Assembly (NCBI RefSeq): GCF_002741105.1
Contig: NZ_NIQU01000007.1
Span: forward strand, 248,001-312,000
Source of the DNA: Pseudomonas sediminis
GTDB taxonomy: Bacteria > Pseudomonadota > Gammaproteobacteria > Pseudomonadales > Pseudomonadaceae
DNA: 64,000 bases
Reading direction: 5' to 3'
Shown: piece after piece, positions 29,454 to 44,820 of the stretch
Layout of the letters: the number at the start of each line of letters is the position of its first letter
How positions within the stretch are numbered: the first letter of the stretch is position 1
Notes under the pieces: generated by a model
The model's input: only the letters and a program-made list of their open reading frames with translations
Told to the model about the DNA's origin: nothing
Database searches by the model: none
Made by a program: the position numbers and the translations under genes

Positions 29454-29572
29454 AAGGATTCCAGCAGGCTTTGACCATAGACTTTCAGCATCGAGGCATA
29501 TGGTCAATGCCGACGCCAGGACGCCCGCGCAAAATGCTCGCACGCTTGCCCCACAACAATAAGGATCGCTGG

Positions 29573-31951
29573 ATGAAACGCTCCCTGACCGCCCTTGCCC
29601 TGCTGGTTGCCGCCGCGGCAGGCGGCCTGACCTGGTACCTGCACGACAAGCAACCGCAGCGCGATGGCGAGTTGGTGCTCGCCGCCCTGCAGGCGCCGGT
29701 CACGGTCGACTACGACGAACGCGGCGTGCCGCACATCCGCGCCGAGAGCGAGGCGGACATGTACCGCGCTCTGGGTTTCGTGCACGCCCAGGATCGTCTG
29801 TTCCAGATGGAGCTGCTGCGGCGTCTGGCGCGCGGTGAGTTGGCCGAAGTGCTCGGCGAAAAGCTGGTGCCCACTGACCGTCTGTTCCGTACCCTGGAAA
29901 TCGGCCGCCATGCCGATGCCTATGCCGCTCGGCTGGATCCCAACAGCCCGTCCACCCAGGCGCTGAATCACTATCTGGAAGGGGTCAACCAGTACCAGGC
30001 CAGCCGCCCACGGCCACTGGAGTTCGACCTGCTAGGCATCGAGCCACGTCCGTTCACCGCAGCCGATACGCTCAGCGTCGCCGGTTACATGGCCTACAGC
30101 TTCGCCGCAGCCCTGCGCACCGAACCGCTGATGACCCATATTCGTGACGAGCTGGGCGCGGACTATCTCAAGCTGTTCGACCTCGACTGGCATCCGCAGG
30201 GCGTGCTTGGCACCTCCCTGGCTGCCGGCGACTGGCAGGATCTTTCCGCCATCGCCCAACTCAGCAGCAGCGCTCTGGAGGGCACCGGTCTGCCGCAGTT
30301 CGAAGGCAGTAACGCCTGGGTGATATCCGGCAGCCGCACCGCCAGCGGCAAACCGCTGCTTGCAGGCGACCCGCACATTCGCTTCTCGCTGCCGGCCGTC
30401 TGGTACGAAGCGCACCTGCAGGCGCCCAGTTACGAGCTGTATGGCTACCACCACGCACTGATTCCCAGCGCCATGCTTGGCCACAATCGTGACTTTGCCT
30501 GGAGCCTGACCATGTTCCAGAACGACGACCTCGACCTGATCGCCGAGCGCACCAATCCAGACAACCCCAACCAGGTCTGGTACCAGGGCAACTGGGTCGA
30601 CCTCGAACAACGTATGGAGAGCATCAAGGTCAAGGGCGCCGAGCCGGTGAAAATCACTCTGCGCCGCTCGCCGCACGGGCCGATCATCAACGATGCTCTG
30701 GGCCAGACCAGCGGCAGCACGCCGATCGCCATGTGGTGGGCCTTCCTCGAAACCGACAACCCGATGCTCGACGCTTTCTACCAGTTGGGCCGCGCCGACA
30801 GCCTGGACAAGGCCCGCACCGCCGTCGAGAAGATCGAGGCCCCCGGCCTCAACGTGCTCTGGGCCGGCGCCAGGGGTGACATCGCCTGGTGGGCCGCGGC
30901 CAAGCTGCCGCTGCGCCCGGATGGCGTCAACCCGACCTTCATCCTCGATGGCGCCAGCGCTGAAGCGGACAAACTCGGCTATCACCCCTTCAGCACCAAC
31001 CCGCAGGAAGAGAACCCCGAGCGCGGCTATATCCTCTCGGCCAACTACCAGCCCGTGCCGGCCAGCGGCATCGAGATTCCCGGTTACTACAACCTGCCTG
31101 ATCGCGGTCAGCGCCTCAACCAGCGCCTGAGCGATGCCTCGGTGAAATGGGACACGCAAAACAGCCAGGCGCTGCAGCTCGATCCTGGTACCGGCTATGG
31201 TCCGCGTCTGCTGGCGCCGATCCTCGACGAGCTGCGCGCAGCAGCGGCGAACGATGAGGAGCGCGCACTGGTGGAGCAACTGGCCAAGTGGAATGGCGAC
31301 CACGAGCTCGACTCCGTGGCCGCCACCCTGTTCAACCAGCTGACCTATCAGCTTGCCCACGAAGCCATGGCCGACGAGCTGGGCGAGGTGTTCTTCGACA
31401 GCCTGCTGCAGACCCGCGTGCTCGACACTGCCTTGCCGCGCCTGACCGCCAATGCCAACTCGCCCTGGTGGAATCGCCAGGGCAGCGAGCAACGCGAGAG
31501 CCGCGCTCAGATCGTCGCCGACGCCTGGCGCGCCAGCCTGGACCATCTGCGCAGCGTTCTCGGCGATGATCCCGCAGCCTGGACCTGGGGCCGTGGTCAT
31601 ACCCTTACTCATAGCCACCCGCTCGGCCAACAGCAGCCACTGGCCTGGCTGCTGAACGTTGGCCCGATGGCGGCTCCGGGCGGCCATGAGACGCCGAACA
31701 ACCTGTCGCACAAGGTAGGGCCGGCGCCCTGGCCGGTGGTTTACGGACCCTCGACCCGGCGTCTGGTCGACCTGGGTGATGCCGGCAAGGCCCTGGGTGG
31801 CATCCCTGTGGGCCAGAGCGGCGTACCGTTCGATGCCCACTATGGCGATCAGGCGACCGCCCACGTAACTGGCGAGTATCAGCCACAGCACCTGAGCGAC
31901 GCCGACGTCAAAGCCAACAGTCAGGCCACCCTGCAGCTCCTGCCGCGCTAA
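29573..31951 (+). CDS. hacB: Penicillin acylase family hydrolase, HacB-type acyl-homoserine lactone acylase
   Basis: 792-aa Ntn hydrolase. It has an N-terminal signal peptide (SLTALALLVAAAAGGLTW), an alpha subunit region, and the autoprocessing site FEG|SNAWV, where Ser246 becomes the beta-chain N-terminal nucleophile. GKPLLAGDPHIRFSLPAVWYE and LGHNRDFAWSLTMFQND are typical of the family. HacB (PA0305) degrades long-chain acyl-homoserine lactones and sits in the same neighbourhood in P. aeruginosa. Orthology here is by position and family, so other amide substrates are possible. AAGGA is upstream of the ATG. It is the last gene of the PA0350-PA0305-like block. Confidence 0.82.
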   Translation: MKRSLTALALLVAAAAGGLTWYLHDKQPQRDGELVLAALQAPVTVDYDERGVPHIRAESEADMYRALGFVHAQDRLFQMELLRRLARGELAEVLGEKLVPTDRLFRTLEIGRHADAYAARLDPNSPSTQALNHYLEGVNQYQASRPRPLEFDLLGIEPRPFTAADTLSVAGYMAYSFAAALRTEPLMTHIRDELGADYLKLFDLDWHPQGVLGTSLAAGDWQDLSAIAQLSSSALEGTGLPQFEGSNAWVISGSRTASGKPLLAGDPHIRFSLPAVWYEAHLQAPSYELYGYHHALIPSAMLGHNRDFAWSLTMFQNDDLDLIAERTNPDNPNQVWYQGNWVDLEQRMESIKVKGAEPVKITLRRSPHGPIINDALGQTSGSTPIAMWWAFLETDNPMLDAFYQLGRADSLDKARTAVEKIEAPGLNVLWAGARGDIAWWAAAKLPLRPDGVNPTFILDGASAEADKLGYHPFSTNPQEENPERGYILSANYQPVPASGIEIPGYYNLPDRGQRLNQRLSDASVKWDTQNSQALQLDPGTGYGPRLLAPILDELRAAAANDEERALVEQLAKWNGDHELDSVAATLFNQLTYQLAHEAMADELGEVFFDSLLQTRVLDTALPRLTANANSPWWNRQGSEQRESRAQIVADAWRASLDHLRSVLGDDPAAWTWGRGHTLTHSHPLGQQQPLAWLLNVGPMAAPGGHETPNNLSHKVGPAPWPVVYGPSTRRLVDLGDAGKALGGIPVGQSGVPFDAHYGDQATAHVTGEYQPQHLSDADVKANSQATLQLLPR

Positions 31952-31967
31952 CAGCGGGAACACAGCG

Positions 31968-32006
31968 TGGTGCGCCAACGGTGCATCACGCTGCACGCTG
32001 GTGCAC
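31968..32006. promoter_or_regulatory. Cluster of GTGC/GCAC half-sites, possible NtrC enhancer
   Basis: Five TGGTGC, GGTGCA and TGCAC motifs occur within 40 bp, about 85-125 bp upstream of the sigma-54 promoter at 32091. NtrC sites have the form TGCACC..GGTGCA. TGCGCC-AAC-GGTGCA (31971-31985) and TGCAC-GCTG-GTGCA (31992-32005) are close but have shorter spacing than the consensus, so binding is a guess supported by position only. Confidence 0.4.
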
Positions 32007-32029
32007 AGCGGCGCTGAAAATAGCGCCGC

Positions 32030-32049
32030 AGGCCCTCGCCCGAGGGCCT
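32030..32049 (+). terminator. GC hairpin downstream of hacB
   Basis: AGGCCCTCG (32030-32038) and CGAGGGCCT (32041-32049) form a perfect 9-bp stem closed by a 2-nt loop, which would fray to a larger loop. It lies 79 bp after the hacB stop and upstream of the sRNA promoter. No U-tract follows, so termination is not certain. Confidence 0.45.
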
Positions 32050-32090
32050 CAACCCCGAAAAACCGCGACTTGCGGCGCTGGTAATAAAAC

Positions 32091-32106
32091 TGGCACACGC
32101 CCTGCA
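32091..32106 (+). promoter_or_regulatory. Sigma-54 (RpoN) promoter
   Basis: TGGCAC-N5-CTGCA has the invariant GG and GC separated by exactly 10 bp, as required for RpoN promoters. The predicted start site is near 32117, 8 bp before the first 48-bp module. It faces the repeat pair and no coding gene on that strand begins within 600 bp (trmL at 32719 is far and has its own ribosome binding site). Confidence 0.75.
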
Positions 32107-32124
32107 TAGGCTAAGGCAATCCCA

Positions 32125-32172
32125 GTTTCGGGGACCTTGGTACAGGCAGGCCGGGGAATCCCCTTCTTTATT
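32125..32172 (+). repeat. 48-bp direct repeat, copy 1
   Basis: Begins GTTTCGGGGACCTTGG and ends CCCCTTCTTTATT. Identical over 48 bp to copy 2, offset by 109 bp. Near the 3' end GGGG (32153-32156) can pair with CCCC (32160-32163), or a GGGGA at 32130-32134 can pair with TCCCC, giving two alternative folds, followed by a T-rich tract. Confidence 0.92.
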
Positions 32173-32233
32173 CGACGCCACCGCGCGTCATGTGTAACGC
32201 GCCATTGCTCGGCCAACGAGCGCGGCGCCACCC

Positions 32234-32281
32234 GTTTCGGGGACCTTGGTACAGGCAGGCCGGGGAATCCCCTTCTTTATT
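32234..32281 (+). repeat. 48-bp direct repeat, copy 2
   Basis: Exact copy of the 32125-32172 module. Its T-rich tail overlaps the stop codon region of the minus-strand gene 32277-32720, so it also forms the shared 3' boundary of both transcripts. Confidence 0.92.
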
Positions 32282-32720
32282 TGGGACGCAGTGCCAGTCG
32301 TGCACGCCAACGTCCATCCTCTTGCGCACCGCGCCACTCCCCGTCCAGCGGACGGGGCGATACCAGCACCAGCAGCAGATCCCGCCCGTCGCGCTCCACC
32401 CGCCAGTTCACCAGGCCCAGCGGCAGTTTCAGCTGCCCCTCGCGCACCCGCCCGTAGGCATCTTCGTAGCGATACACCAGAGCGCCGTCGACATGCTCGG
32501 CCTGGGCTTGCGGCTCACGGTTGAACCAGAGCTGCAACCCCTGCTCCCAGGCCCCGACATCCTCGATACGCAGACGCGGAGGATCGAACACCCGGCCAAT
32601 CATCATGCCGACGAGAAAGGCGATCAGCATCACCGATGCCATGAAACGCCAGCGCAAACGCGGCCGTGGATCTTCAGGCGGCGTAGAATGGCGCTCGTCC
32701 CAGCGCTCGGAGTGTTGCAT
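32277..32720 (-). CDS. Small single-pass membrane protein, PA5126-like, unknown function
   Basis: 147-aa protein (or 151 aa if the ATG at 32732 is used) that I do not recognise as a named family. It has an Arg/Pro-rich cytoplasmic N-terminus, one membrane helix (MASVMLIAFLVGMMIGRVF, about 27-45) and a periplasmic region with alternating hydrophobic and charged residues (LQLWFNREPQAQ, LVYRYEDAYGRVREGQLKLPLG, DLLLVLVSPRPLDGEW) suggesting a beta-rich domain. It starts head-to-head with trmL: the two ATGs overlap, so one of them, probably this one, may start further downstream (ATG at 32642 would leave only the helix and domain). A corresponding gene sits between ntrC and the tRNA methylase in P. 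aeruginosa. Confidence 0.65.
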   Translation of the reverse strand: MQHSERWDERHSTPPEDPRPRLRWRFMASVMLIAFLVGMMIGRVFDPPRLRIEDVGAWEQGLQLWFNREPQAQAEHVDGALVYRYEDAYGRVREGQLKLPLGLVNWRVERDGRDLLLVLVSPRPLDGEWRGAQEDGRWRARLALRPK

Positions 32721-33183
32721 GTTCCAAGTCATCCTCTTTCAACCGGAAATTCCACCCAATACCGGCAACATTATCAGGCTGTGCGCCAACAGCGGCTGCC
32801 AGCTGCATTTGATCGAGCCACTGGGCTTCGAGCTGGACGACAAGCGCCTGCGCCGCGCCGGCCTGGATTATCACGAATACGCCACGCTCAAGCGCCACCC
32901 GGACCTGCAGAGTTGCCTCGAGAGCCTCGGCCAGCCGCGCGTTTTCGCCTTCACCACCAAGGGTTCGCAACCGTTCCACGAGATCGCCTACCAGCCCGGC
33001 GACGCCTTCCTGTTCGGCCCGGAAAGCTGCGGCCTGCCAGAAGAGGTGCGCAACGCCCTGCCACCCGAGCAGCGCGTACGCCTACCCATGCGCGCCGGTT
33101 GCCGCAGTCTGAATCTATCCAATACCGTGGCCGTCACCGTTTACGAAGCCTGGCGGCAGAACGGCTTCGGTGGCGCCGACTAA
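32719..33183 (+). CDS. trmL: tRNA (cytidine/uridine-2'-O)-methyltransferase TrmL
   Basis: TrmL methylates the 2'-OH of the wobble nucleotide 34 in tRNA-Leu isoacceptors. The 154-aa SPOUT enzyme has the standard length. Motif 1 is in ILFQPEIPPNTGNIIRLCANSG, motif 2 is FLFGPESCGLP and motif 3 is RLPMRAGCRSLNLSNTVAVTVYEAWR, the knot region that binds AdoMet. GGAG lies 7 nt upstream of the ATG. Its start overlaps head-to-head with the ATG of the minus-strand membrane protein. A bidirectional terminator separates it from the convergent secB. Confidence 0.95.
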   Translation: MFQVILFQPEIPPNTGNIIRLCANSGCQLHLIEPLGFELDDKRLRRAGLDYHEYATLKRHPDLQSCLESLGQPRVFAFTTKGSQPFHEIAYQPGDAFLFGPESCGLPEEVRNALPPEQRVRLPMRAGCRSLNLSNTVAVTVYEAWRQNGFGGAD

Positions 33184-43588: not shown

Positions 43589-44226
43589 TACCAGCGACCA
43601 TCCCAGGCGGCGAAGTTCTGCAGCAACTGCAGGCCGTGGGTATGGCTCTTCTCCGGGTGGAACTGCACGGCGAAGCGCGAGCCTTCGGCCAGCGCCGCAG
43701 CGAAGTCCTTGCCATAGTGACCGCGACCGACCACCTGCTGCGGCTTGCCGGCTTCGATGTAATAGCTGTGCACGAAGTAGAAGCGCGCGTGGTCGGGAAT
43801 GTCGTGCCACAGCGGATGCTTGACCGCCTGCGCCACTTCGTTCCAGCCCATGTGCGGCACCTTCAGGCGTTCGCCTTCCTCGGCCAGGTCCTTGCCGAAG
43901 AAGCGTACCTGGCCGGGAAACAGGCCGATGCAATCGACGCCGTCGTTCTCCTCGCTGCGCTCGAGCAGCGCCTGCATGCCGACGCAAATACCGAGGAATG
44001 GGCGGTCGGCACTGACTTCACGCACCAGCTCATCGAAGCCCAGGCGCTTGATCTCGGCCATGCAATCGCGGATCGCGCCGACACCGGGGAATACCACGCG
44101 GTCCGCTTCGCGGATCACTTTGGCATCGGAGGTCACCAGCACGCGACCAGCGCCGACGTGCTCCAGCGCCTTGGCCACCGAGTGCAGGTTGCCCATGCCA
44201 TAGTCGATTACGGCTACCGTCTGCAT
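43588..44226 (-). CDS. hisH: Imidazole glycerol phosphate synthase, glutaminase subunit
   Basis: HisH hydrolyses glutamine and channels ammonia to HisF. The 212-aa class I glutamine amidotransferase has the nucleophile Cys in [14 protein letters not shown] and the His-x-Glu pair in [21 protein letters not shown]. It starts [17 protein letters not shown], with [12 protein letters not shown] holding the oxyanion strand. It begins immediately after hisB (adjacent stop and start) and overlaps the DUF2164 gene by one base. Confidence 0.98.
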
Positions 44227-44820
44227 TTACAGGCAGCCCTTGGTCGACGGCATCTGCCCGGCCATGCGCGGGTCCAGCTCGACAGCCATGCGCAGCGCGC
44301 GGCCGAAGGCCTTGAACACGGTCTCGATCTGGTGGTGGGTGTTGTGCCCACGCAGGTTGTCGATATGCAGGCTGACCAGGGCGTGGTTGACGAAGCCCTG
44401 GAAGAATTCCTGGAACAGGTCGACATCGAAGTTACCGACCACCGCACGGGTGAATGGTACGTGCATCTGCAGGCCGGGGCGACCGGAGAAGTCGATCACC
44501 ACGCGCGACAGCGCTTCGTCCAGCGGCACGTAGGAATGGCCGTAACGGGTCATGCCCTTCTTGTCGCCAATGGCCTTGGTAAAGGCCTGGCCGAGGGTAA
44601 TACCGACGTCCTCGACGGTGTGGTGGTCGTCGATATGCAGATCGCCCTTGCACTCGATATCGAGGTCAATCAGACCATGACGGGCGATCTGATCGAGCAT
44701 GTGCTCGAGAAAAGGCACACCAATGTCAAACTTGGCCTTGCCGGTGCCATCCAGGTTGATCGAGACCTTGACCTGGGTTTCCAGGGTGTTGCGCTCGACG
44801 AATGCCGTACGTTCGGCCAT
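44227..44820 (-). CDS. hisB: Imidazoleglycerol-phosphate dehydratase
   Basis: HisB (IGPD) dehydrates imidazole glycerol phosphate to imidazole acetol phosphate. The 197-aa length means it is the monofunctional dehydratase; there is no N-terminal histidinol-phosphatase domain as in the E. coli bifunctional protein. The Mn-binding HHTVEDVG and the matching HNTHHQIE, plus [13 protein letters not shown], are present. The ATG at 44820 ([12 protein letters not shown]) is chosen over 44832 because GGAG lies 6 nt upstream. It is the first gene of the his cluster. The histidinol-phosphatase must therefore be encoded elsewhere, plausibly at 11138-11791. Confidence 0.98.

Follow-up and report, generated by a model that had tools for sequence, protein, structure and literature searches.

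The region between an acylase gene and a PA5126-like gene in the window, that is, the whole 64,000-nucleotide stretch of DNA analysed here, very probably encodes NrsZ, a nitrogen-stress small RNA (sRNA) that would be induced under nitrogen limitation, fold into two hairpins of the same sequence and pair with target mRNAs through the loop ACAGGCAG that each of them displays. The first-pass annotation had put the region forward as an NrsZ candidate, and this identity is borne out by a match above cut-off to the Rfam model RF02695, a conserved sigma-54 promoter, modules carrying ACAGGCAG, and the PA5126-like, SpoU-methylase (trmL-like) and secB genes nearby. The predicted RNA runs from 32117 to 32282 on the plus strand and is probably about 166 nt long, with two modules. 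Its start is placed about 12 bases past the GC of the -12 box, the Rfam match beginning at 32119, and its end is placed by the second U tract.

NrsZ of P. aeruginosa is dependent on RpoN and NtrBC, is processed, has a length of 226 nt of which the first 60 nt are functional, carries the ACAGGCAG motif and activates rhlA, according to the accessible passages of two papers (PMC8395346, PMC9308961). The window locus shares with this RNA (PA5125.1, RF02695) the model match, the sigma-54 promoter, the tandem ACAGGCAG modules and the PA5126-like gene downstream, but it has two modules and a predicted length of about 166 nt rather than 226 nt, and an acylase gene replaces ntrC upstream. The P. aeruginosa RNA reportedly contains three similar short modules, as stated in the 2014 abstract of Wenner and co-workers. 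GlnZ of enterobacteria is, like NrsZ, a nitrogen-stress sRNA encoded with the glnA-ntrBC genes, as described in the available part of the source (PMC9731577), but it comes from the glnA 3'UTR without a sigma-54 promoter of its own, and the two are likened by description, not by sequence.

Positions 32119-32347 of the plus strand match the NrsZ covariance model RF02695 over its whole length (1-236) with 100.6 bits against a cut-off of 76.9, in the Rfam search that the first-pass annotation had recommended. The 3' part of the match, where the posterior digits are mostly 5-8 of 9, overlaps the antisense PA5126-like gene; in this part of the model the consensus has a third unit, GUUU-GGG ... CCC-CUUUUAUU, and no third module is found in the window by the module profile. 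A search of other Pseudomonas, likewise recommended, covered 59 genomes of the genus (own genome included); RF02695 was recovered at E ≤ 0.001 in 58 of them and above the cut-off in 40, and none of the 14 control genomes had a match. The whole-genome search gave a single nrsZ locus in the own genome, and the plasmid search returned no match. Rfam matches to rpfG (20.3 bits) and P11 (17.3 bits) were set aside as far under their own cut-offs.

The comparison across relatives was based on 147 loci, consisting of the window, the 30 best RF02695 matches (L002-L031) and 116 of the 120 pattern matches listed (L032-L151). L042, L047, L136 and L149 were dropped as chance matches in records not labelled Pseudomonas, and L134, labelled Paucimonas, was kept on account of its ntrC match of 92%. 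The pattern for L032-L151 demands GTACAGGCAGGC, some genomes are present in both sets, and all of the loci are related.

A sigma-54 (-24/-12) promoter, TGGCACACGCCCTGCA, at 32091-32106 on the plus strand is well supported by sequence comparison. The site, described at first reading as a near-perfect RpoN promoter, is real: it has the form TGGCAC-N5-CTGCA with GG at 32092-32093 and GC at 32104-32105, 10 bases apart, and it scores 10 of 12 against the sigma-54 consensus TGGCACG-N4-TTGCW. Such a score alone is not rare, since four GG-N10-GC sites scoring at least 10, the nrsZ site included, occur on the two strands of the 64-kb window, and the promoter is convincing because it is conserved across loci, not by its score. 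An equivalent site of at least 9 of 12 is present in all 140 of the 147 loci that have at least 60 nt upstream (window included; related and partly redundant), and in 136 of these it reaches at least 10, whereas dinucleotide-shuffled upstream regions reach 9 in 147 of 2800 cases and 10 in 32 of 2800. The GC of the site lies 15-39 nt before the module profile, the commonest distances being 18, 19 or 32. Among 17 more distant loci, taken from 20 stretches, 12 have a sigma-54 site scoring 10 or 11, and the scores below 10 are those of L283 (9), L280 (8), L281 (6), L271 (6) and L279 (5).

Further upstream, a cluster of GTGC/GCAC half-sites at 31967-32010, read in the sequence without a strand assignment and kept in relatives, forms a putative NtrC enhancer 81-124 bases upstream of the first base of the -24 box. 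NtrC-like half-sites had earlier been noted 85-125 bp upstream, and this description stands for their position and clustering but less so for the resemblance to NtrC sites, which is weak: against the strict E. coli-type NtrC consensus TGCACC-N5-GGTGCA the window scores 9 of 12, a value that 303 of 2620 shuffled sequences also reach. Across the loci, the same consensus is matched at 10 or 11 in 72 of 131, compared with 34 of 2620 shuffles, and the GTGC/GCAC starts in 130 non-independent loci are concentrated at -190 to -110, with 417 in nine ten-base bins there, 94 in the seven bins further up and 54 in the seven bins further down. The 44-base half-site block is identical at 44/44 positions in P. 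mendocina FFL34 (L109), 40/44 in Pseudomonas sp. 8O (L123) and 41/44 in P. oleovorans DSM 1045 (L127), and the stretch between the block and the -24 box at 77/79, 65/83 and 64/84, respectively. The conservation of the block supports its reading as an enhancer, within which the putative NtrC sites are plausible. The spacing GCAC-N7-GTGC was rejected as an NtrC site: 18 of 131 loci have it, and all six of the window's group lack it. Between the half-site block and the promoter, at 32008-32050, inspection by eye showed two inverted repeats that are short and GC-rich, with arms of 8-9 bases, in a region where no inverted repeats with arms of at least 12 are listed; no T run follows them, and they are perhaps the end of the acylase transcript.

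Downstream of the promoter, the modules at 32122-32172 and 32231-32281 are identical in 50 of 51 bases at a spacing of 109, and the identical 48-bp duplication reported at first reading is confirmed, with 48 consecutive bases shared between 32125-32172 and 32234-32281. Within these stretches on the plus strand, module 1 (32130-32172) comprises a hairpin at 32130-32163 with the loop ACAGGCAG at 32142-32149 and a U-rich tail at 32164-32172, and module 2 (32239-32281) comprises a hairpin at 32239-32272 with its loop at 32251-32258 and a U-rich tail at 32273-32281, a predicted terminator. The predicted module fold is one 12-bp hairpin, which reads GGGGA-CCUUGGU, the loop ACAGGCAG, GCCGGGG, an AA bulge and UCCCC, followed by UUCUUUAUU; in this stem, around the 8-nt loop, the predicted partners are CCUUGGU and GCCGGGG and, farther out, GGGGA and UCCCC. 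Each module had been described as ending in GGGG-AAT-CCCC and a T-rich tract, which is accurate as letters but not as a small hairpin, the predicted fold pairing these bases otherwise. The spacer between the modules (32173-32230, plus strand) is predicted to form two hairpins (-26.7 kcal/mol, z -1.55), and in the fold of the full-length RNA module 1 and module 2 pair with each other. The stability of the single hairpin was rejected as evidence with z near -1: module 1 folds at -18.6 kcal/mol with z -0.88 versus shuffles, the second module has z -0.66, and the single-module range is -0.66 to -1.04. Because the fold energy is not notably below that of shuffles, the module structure rests on comparison.

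For that comparison, 95 distinct modules were aligned, of which two are those of the window and 93 were picked from 110 listed (141 thinned from 232). Standard pairs occupy 91.9% of the stem cells, and 26 stem cells are changed on both sides compared with a shuffle mean of 7.4, a number as high being seen in 0 of 500 shuffles; 16 of the 26 double changes are from G-C to A-U in the pair adjoining the loop-closing U-G. When the 3' arm is slid by 1-3 columns, 40.0-76.9% of the cells are paired and covariation is 0.064-0.215, versus 0.253 unslid. At three positions of the stem the pair is missing in 23, 26 and 35 of the 95 rows, partly because modules of other length were aligned without gaps. The loop with its preceding U, UACAGGCAG, is invariant in 95 of 95 aligned modules, although the selection is partly responsible for this invariance: in each locus found by pattern, one module was chosen by a pattern that includes the loop. 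The other modules of a locus, like the loci of the 99-genome family search, were found by the profile only, and since that search required likeness to the profile, copies with a changed loop may be under-counted. The exceptions seen are the second locus L267 (ACAAGCAG), the last module of L269 (CCAGGCAG), an extra base in L282 and L285, and the loop UUUAGGCAG of L271 and L279, which have no ntrC or trmL match nearby.

The number of modules has changed often, as judged on a weakly supported tree. Among the 147 loci, 53 have one module, 13 two, 57 three, 14 four, eight five and two eight, so that the copy number in relatives ranges from 1 to 8 among the matches listed. In the family search, 77 of 99 genomes and 15 of 19 genera carry at least one module by the module profile. 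The tree was built from 75 of 122 loci considered, namely those in which the TrmL and SecB matches span 140 residues or more and at least 60 nt of upstream sequence is present, and it requires 21 changes of module number, a rough figure because the tree was drawn from 325 columns and has good support for only 10 of 72 inner branches; shuffled labels require a mean of 40.2 and a minimum of 34 changes (200 draws). When each unit and its spacer were compared with the next one along, 13 of 117 comparisons gave a likeness of at least 90%, including one of complete identity, an indication that duplication or conversion is still going on. The longest arrays seen, the eight-module arrays of L052 and L077, mix G-C and A-U forms of the loop-near pair within the array. 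Second, dispersed single-module NrsZ-like copies were noted at L265 (G071:C8:60354-64405) and L267 (G100:C49:21950-24313), both with sigma-54-like sites by eye; in L267, which is near a contig end, the loop is changed and the 3' arm broken. The papers listed in the literature searches, to which the primary paper did not belong, included none on variation in the copy number of NrsZ.

The arrangement of the window itself had been thought to be a new one, which proved incorrect: both modules are 49/49 identical in P. mendocina FFL34, P. oleovorans DSM 1045 and Pseudomonas sp. 8O, and because the identical pair is present in three other species, it is neither new nor recent. These loci also share the spacing of 109, the acylase gene upstream and the PA5126-like gene downstream, and they differ from the window by few spacer changes (identity 58, 55 and 56 of 60 in L109, L123 and L127), by changes to the half-site block in two of them and by more changes between the block and the promoter. 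The nearest locus in the sample is that of P. mendocina FFL34, 98% identical over the TrmL and SecB columns. At the other extreme, a distant genus (g5) has a profile match with a single module in eight of 10 genomes searched (L270, L272-L278). Many letters of its stem differ, the two loci folded pair fully (e.g., GGUGACUCUGGU with GCCAGAGUCGCC), and the loop keeps CAGGCAGG and reads UCAGGCAG-G in all eight loci, with a sigma-54 site of 10 or 11 of 12 just upstream, and ntrC upstream and TrmL downstream in 8/8. An NrsZ-like RNA in this genus suggests that the family is old.

The 3' end of the array has a conserved anchor. The stop codon of the facing PA5126-like gene lies inside the last tail in 117 of 123 loci, with the same offset in 112, and in the window it occupies 32277-32279 in the tail of module 2. 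The first ten tail bases contain 6.6 T in last modules, 6.5 in single modules and 5.0 in internal ones (60, 36 and 148 distinct sequences, respectively), and within loci the last tail is above the internal mean in 79 of 91, equal in eight and lower in four, although a p-value for this difference is not to be taken at face value because the loci are related. These 91 were paired out of 94 multi-module loci, after the exclusion of L116, which contains runs of N, and L138, which is truncated at the end of the locus. The stop codon itself could preserve TTA in the last tail. Six three-module loci with no PA5126-like match (L015, L020, L023, L025, L027 and L056) show a run of four T in the last tail and of three T in the internal tails, which speaks against the stop codon as the whole reason, but the six are mutually similar and a diverged facing gene could be missed. 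L038 has no tail difference, though its last module may lie past the stretch compared. A tentative reading, to which we assign somewhat less than an even chance, is that NrsZ consists of terminator hairpins strung together, all nearly identical and each bearing the seed, with the dose set by their number; the last would be the true terminator at the facing stop codon, and the internal ones would have weakened U tracts that allow polymerase read-through into longer chains. In the window, the first tail, TTCTTTATTC, is nearly as T-rich as the last, TTCTTTATTT, and because the first module of the window's group keeps a strong-looking tail, the chain-of-terminators reading predicts two RNAs with ends near 32172 and 32281.

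It is improbable that the hairpins are mainly a sponge for an RNA-binding protein (Hfq, Rsm or other), with the loop as a protein site and not an antisense seed. Rsm proteins need GGA, which the 8-nt loop ACAGGCAG does not contain, and the single module of 53 of the 147 loci would make a poor sponge, although the presence of one loop in 95 of 95 aligned modules and the variable copy number would suit titration. The accessible part of a CLIP-seq study lists NrsZ among the RNAs that are more Hfq-enriched in planktonic cells, not significantly (PMC6890931), whereas the activation of rhlA reported for P. aeruginosa in the available passages (PMC8395346, PMC9308961) argues against a sponge. Considerably less likely still are repeats that act only as transcription terminators, either of the acylase gene or of leftward and rightward transcription, with no regulatory RNA. 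Each module does have the look of an intrinsic terminator, U-rich tail included, and the last overlaps the facing stop codon, but a terminator needs neither the conserved loop nor a sigma-54 site in 140 of 140 loci, the region matches the Rfam NrsZ model, and the gene on the upstream side is not the same in all lineages. A DNA repeat, whether REP-like or mobile, or an assembly artefact, as the two near-identical copies and the dispersed second loci in G071 and G100 might suggest, is hardly credible in view of the single locus in the own genome and of the same module spacing in three species with species-specific spacer changes.

The genes around the locus are in keeping with an identity as NrsZ. 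The convergent ORF at 32277-32732 on the minus strand, which has no Pfam match, presumably holds the place of PA5126, by synteny with the trmL-like and secB genes, and a PA5126-like gene is thus immediately downstream as first described. Such a gene lies beside nrsZ in 124 of the 147 loci, and 111 of the 129 loci whose downstream sequence reaches 1100 bases or more have a TrmL match in it. On the upstream side, the window has a penicillin-amidase-family (acylase) ORF at 29471-31951 on the plus strand (PF01804, E 1.1e-215). Where the upstream sequence is at least 1400 bases long (120 loci), it contains ntrC on the same strand in 91, the acylase in five and neither within reach of the comparison in 24; 67 of the 102 loci for which both flanks are available have ntrC as well as TrmL. 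Six loci have the acylase on the upstream side (the window, L030, L063, L109, L123 and L127), five of which form a well-supported set in the tree, L030 being outside the tree. The synteny junction recognised in the first-pass annotation is real: ntrC is not directly upstream of nrsZ in the own genome but at G000:C15:178971-180341, about 100 kb from nrsZ at C15:280119, and the acylase is upstream here and in five relatives. In the stretch around ntrC (L264, G000:C15:177000-186000), ntrC is followed by a TM2-like ORF and later by two PilT/PilU-like ORFs, named by reading their translations. These neighbours suggest a rearrangement that joined ntrC to another region, with the break between ntrC and the upstream region of nrsZ. 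The loss of ntrC as a neighbour is not special, because 24 of the 120 loci show neither ntrC nor the acylase upstream.

In the mechanism that we propose, phosphorylated NtrC bound near 31967-32010 would activate sigma-54 RNA polymerase at 32091-32106 when nitrogen is limiting, and the RNA would begin at about 32117 and contain two copies of one hairpin displaying ACAGGCAG in its loop. The U-rich tail after the hairpin could end transcription and could bind Hfq, the transcript may be processed, and the loop would, on the model of P. aeruginosa, pair with target mRNAs at sites resembling CUGCCUGU. Since nearly all copies share the loop, extra copies should raise the dose and not add targets. The own genome has 12 non-self CCTGCCTGTA sites, and the pattern CTGCCTGT-N(0-30)-ATG has 65 matches there versus 19 for the reversed control pattern; when candidate sites were checked by ORF and third-position GC, many appeared to lie inside coding regions. 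The site upstream of msbA was rejected, its 7-base core (CTGCCTG or TGCCTGT) being kept in one of 25 loci returned (26/26 genomes matched). At the hisB-hisH junction, CTGCCTGTAAATG at 44224-44236 of the window (minus strand) lies immediately ahead of the hisH start and could pair with the loop of NrsZ; it too was rejected, since its 7-base core, found in 18 of 30 loci returned (36/39 genomes matched), is explained by the hisB coding end. Neither among the own-genome sites nor at the two pre-start sites compared across relatives was a conserved NrsZ target found. Loop-complementary sites were also noticed inside gltB-like and nitrite-reductase-like coding regions, named from a reading of the translations.

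The window locus is one more NrsZ in a family already represented in Rfam. In the group to which the window belongs, NrsZ keeps its promoter after a genome rearrangement that appears to have parted it from ntrC. Across the relatives, the hairpin has been copied 1 to 8 times with a loop that is nearly always the same, and this variation would provide a natural test of dose control by an sRNA.
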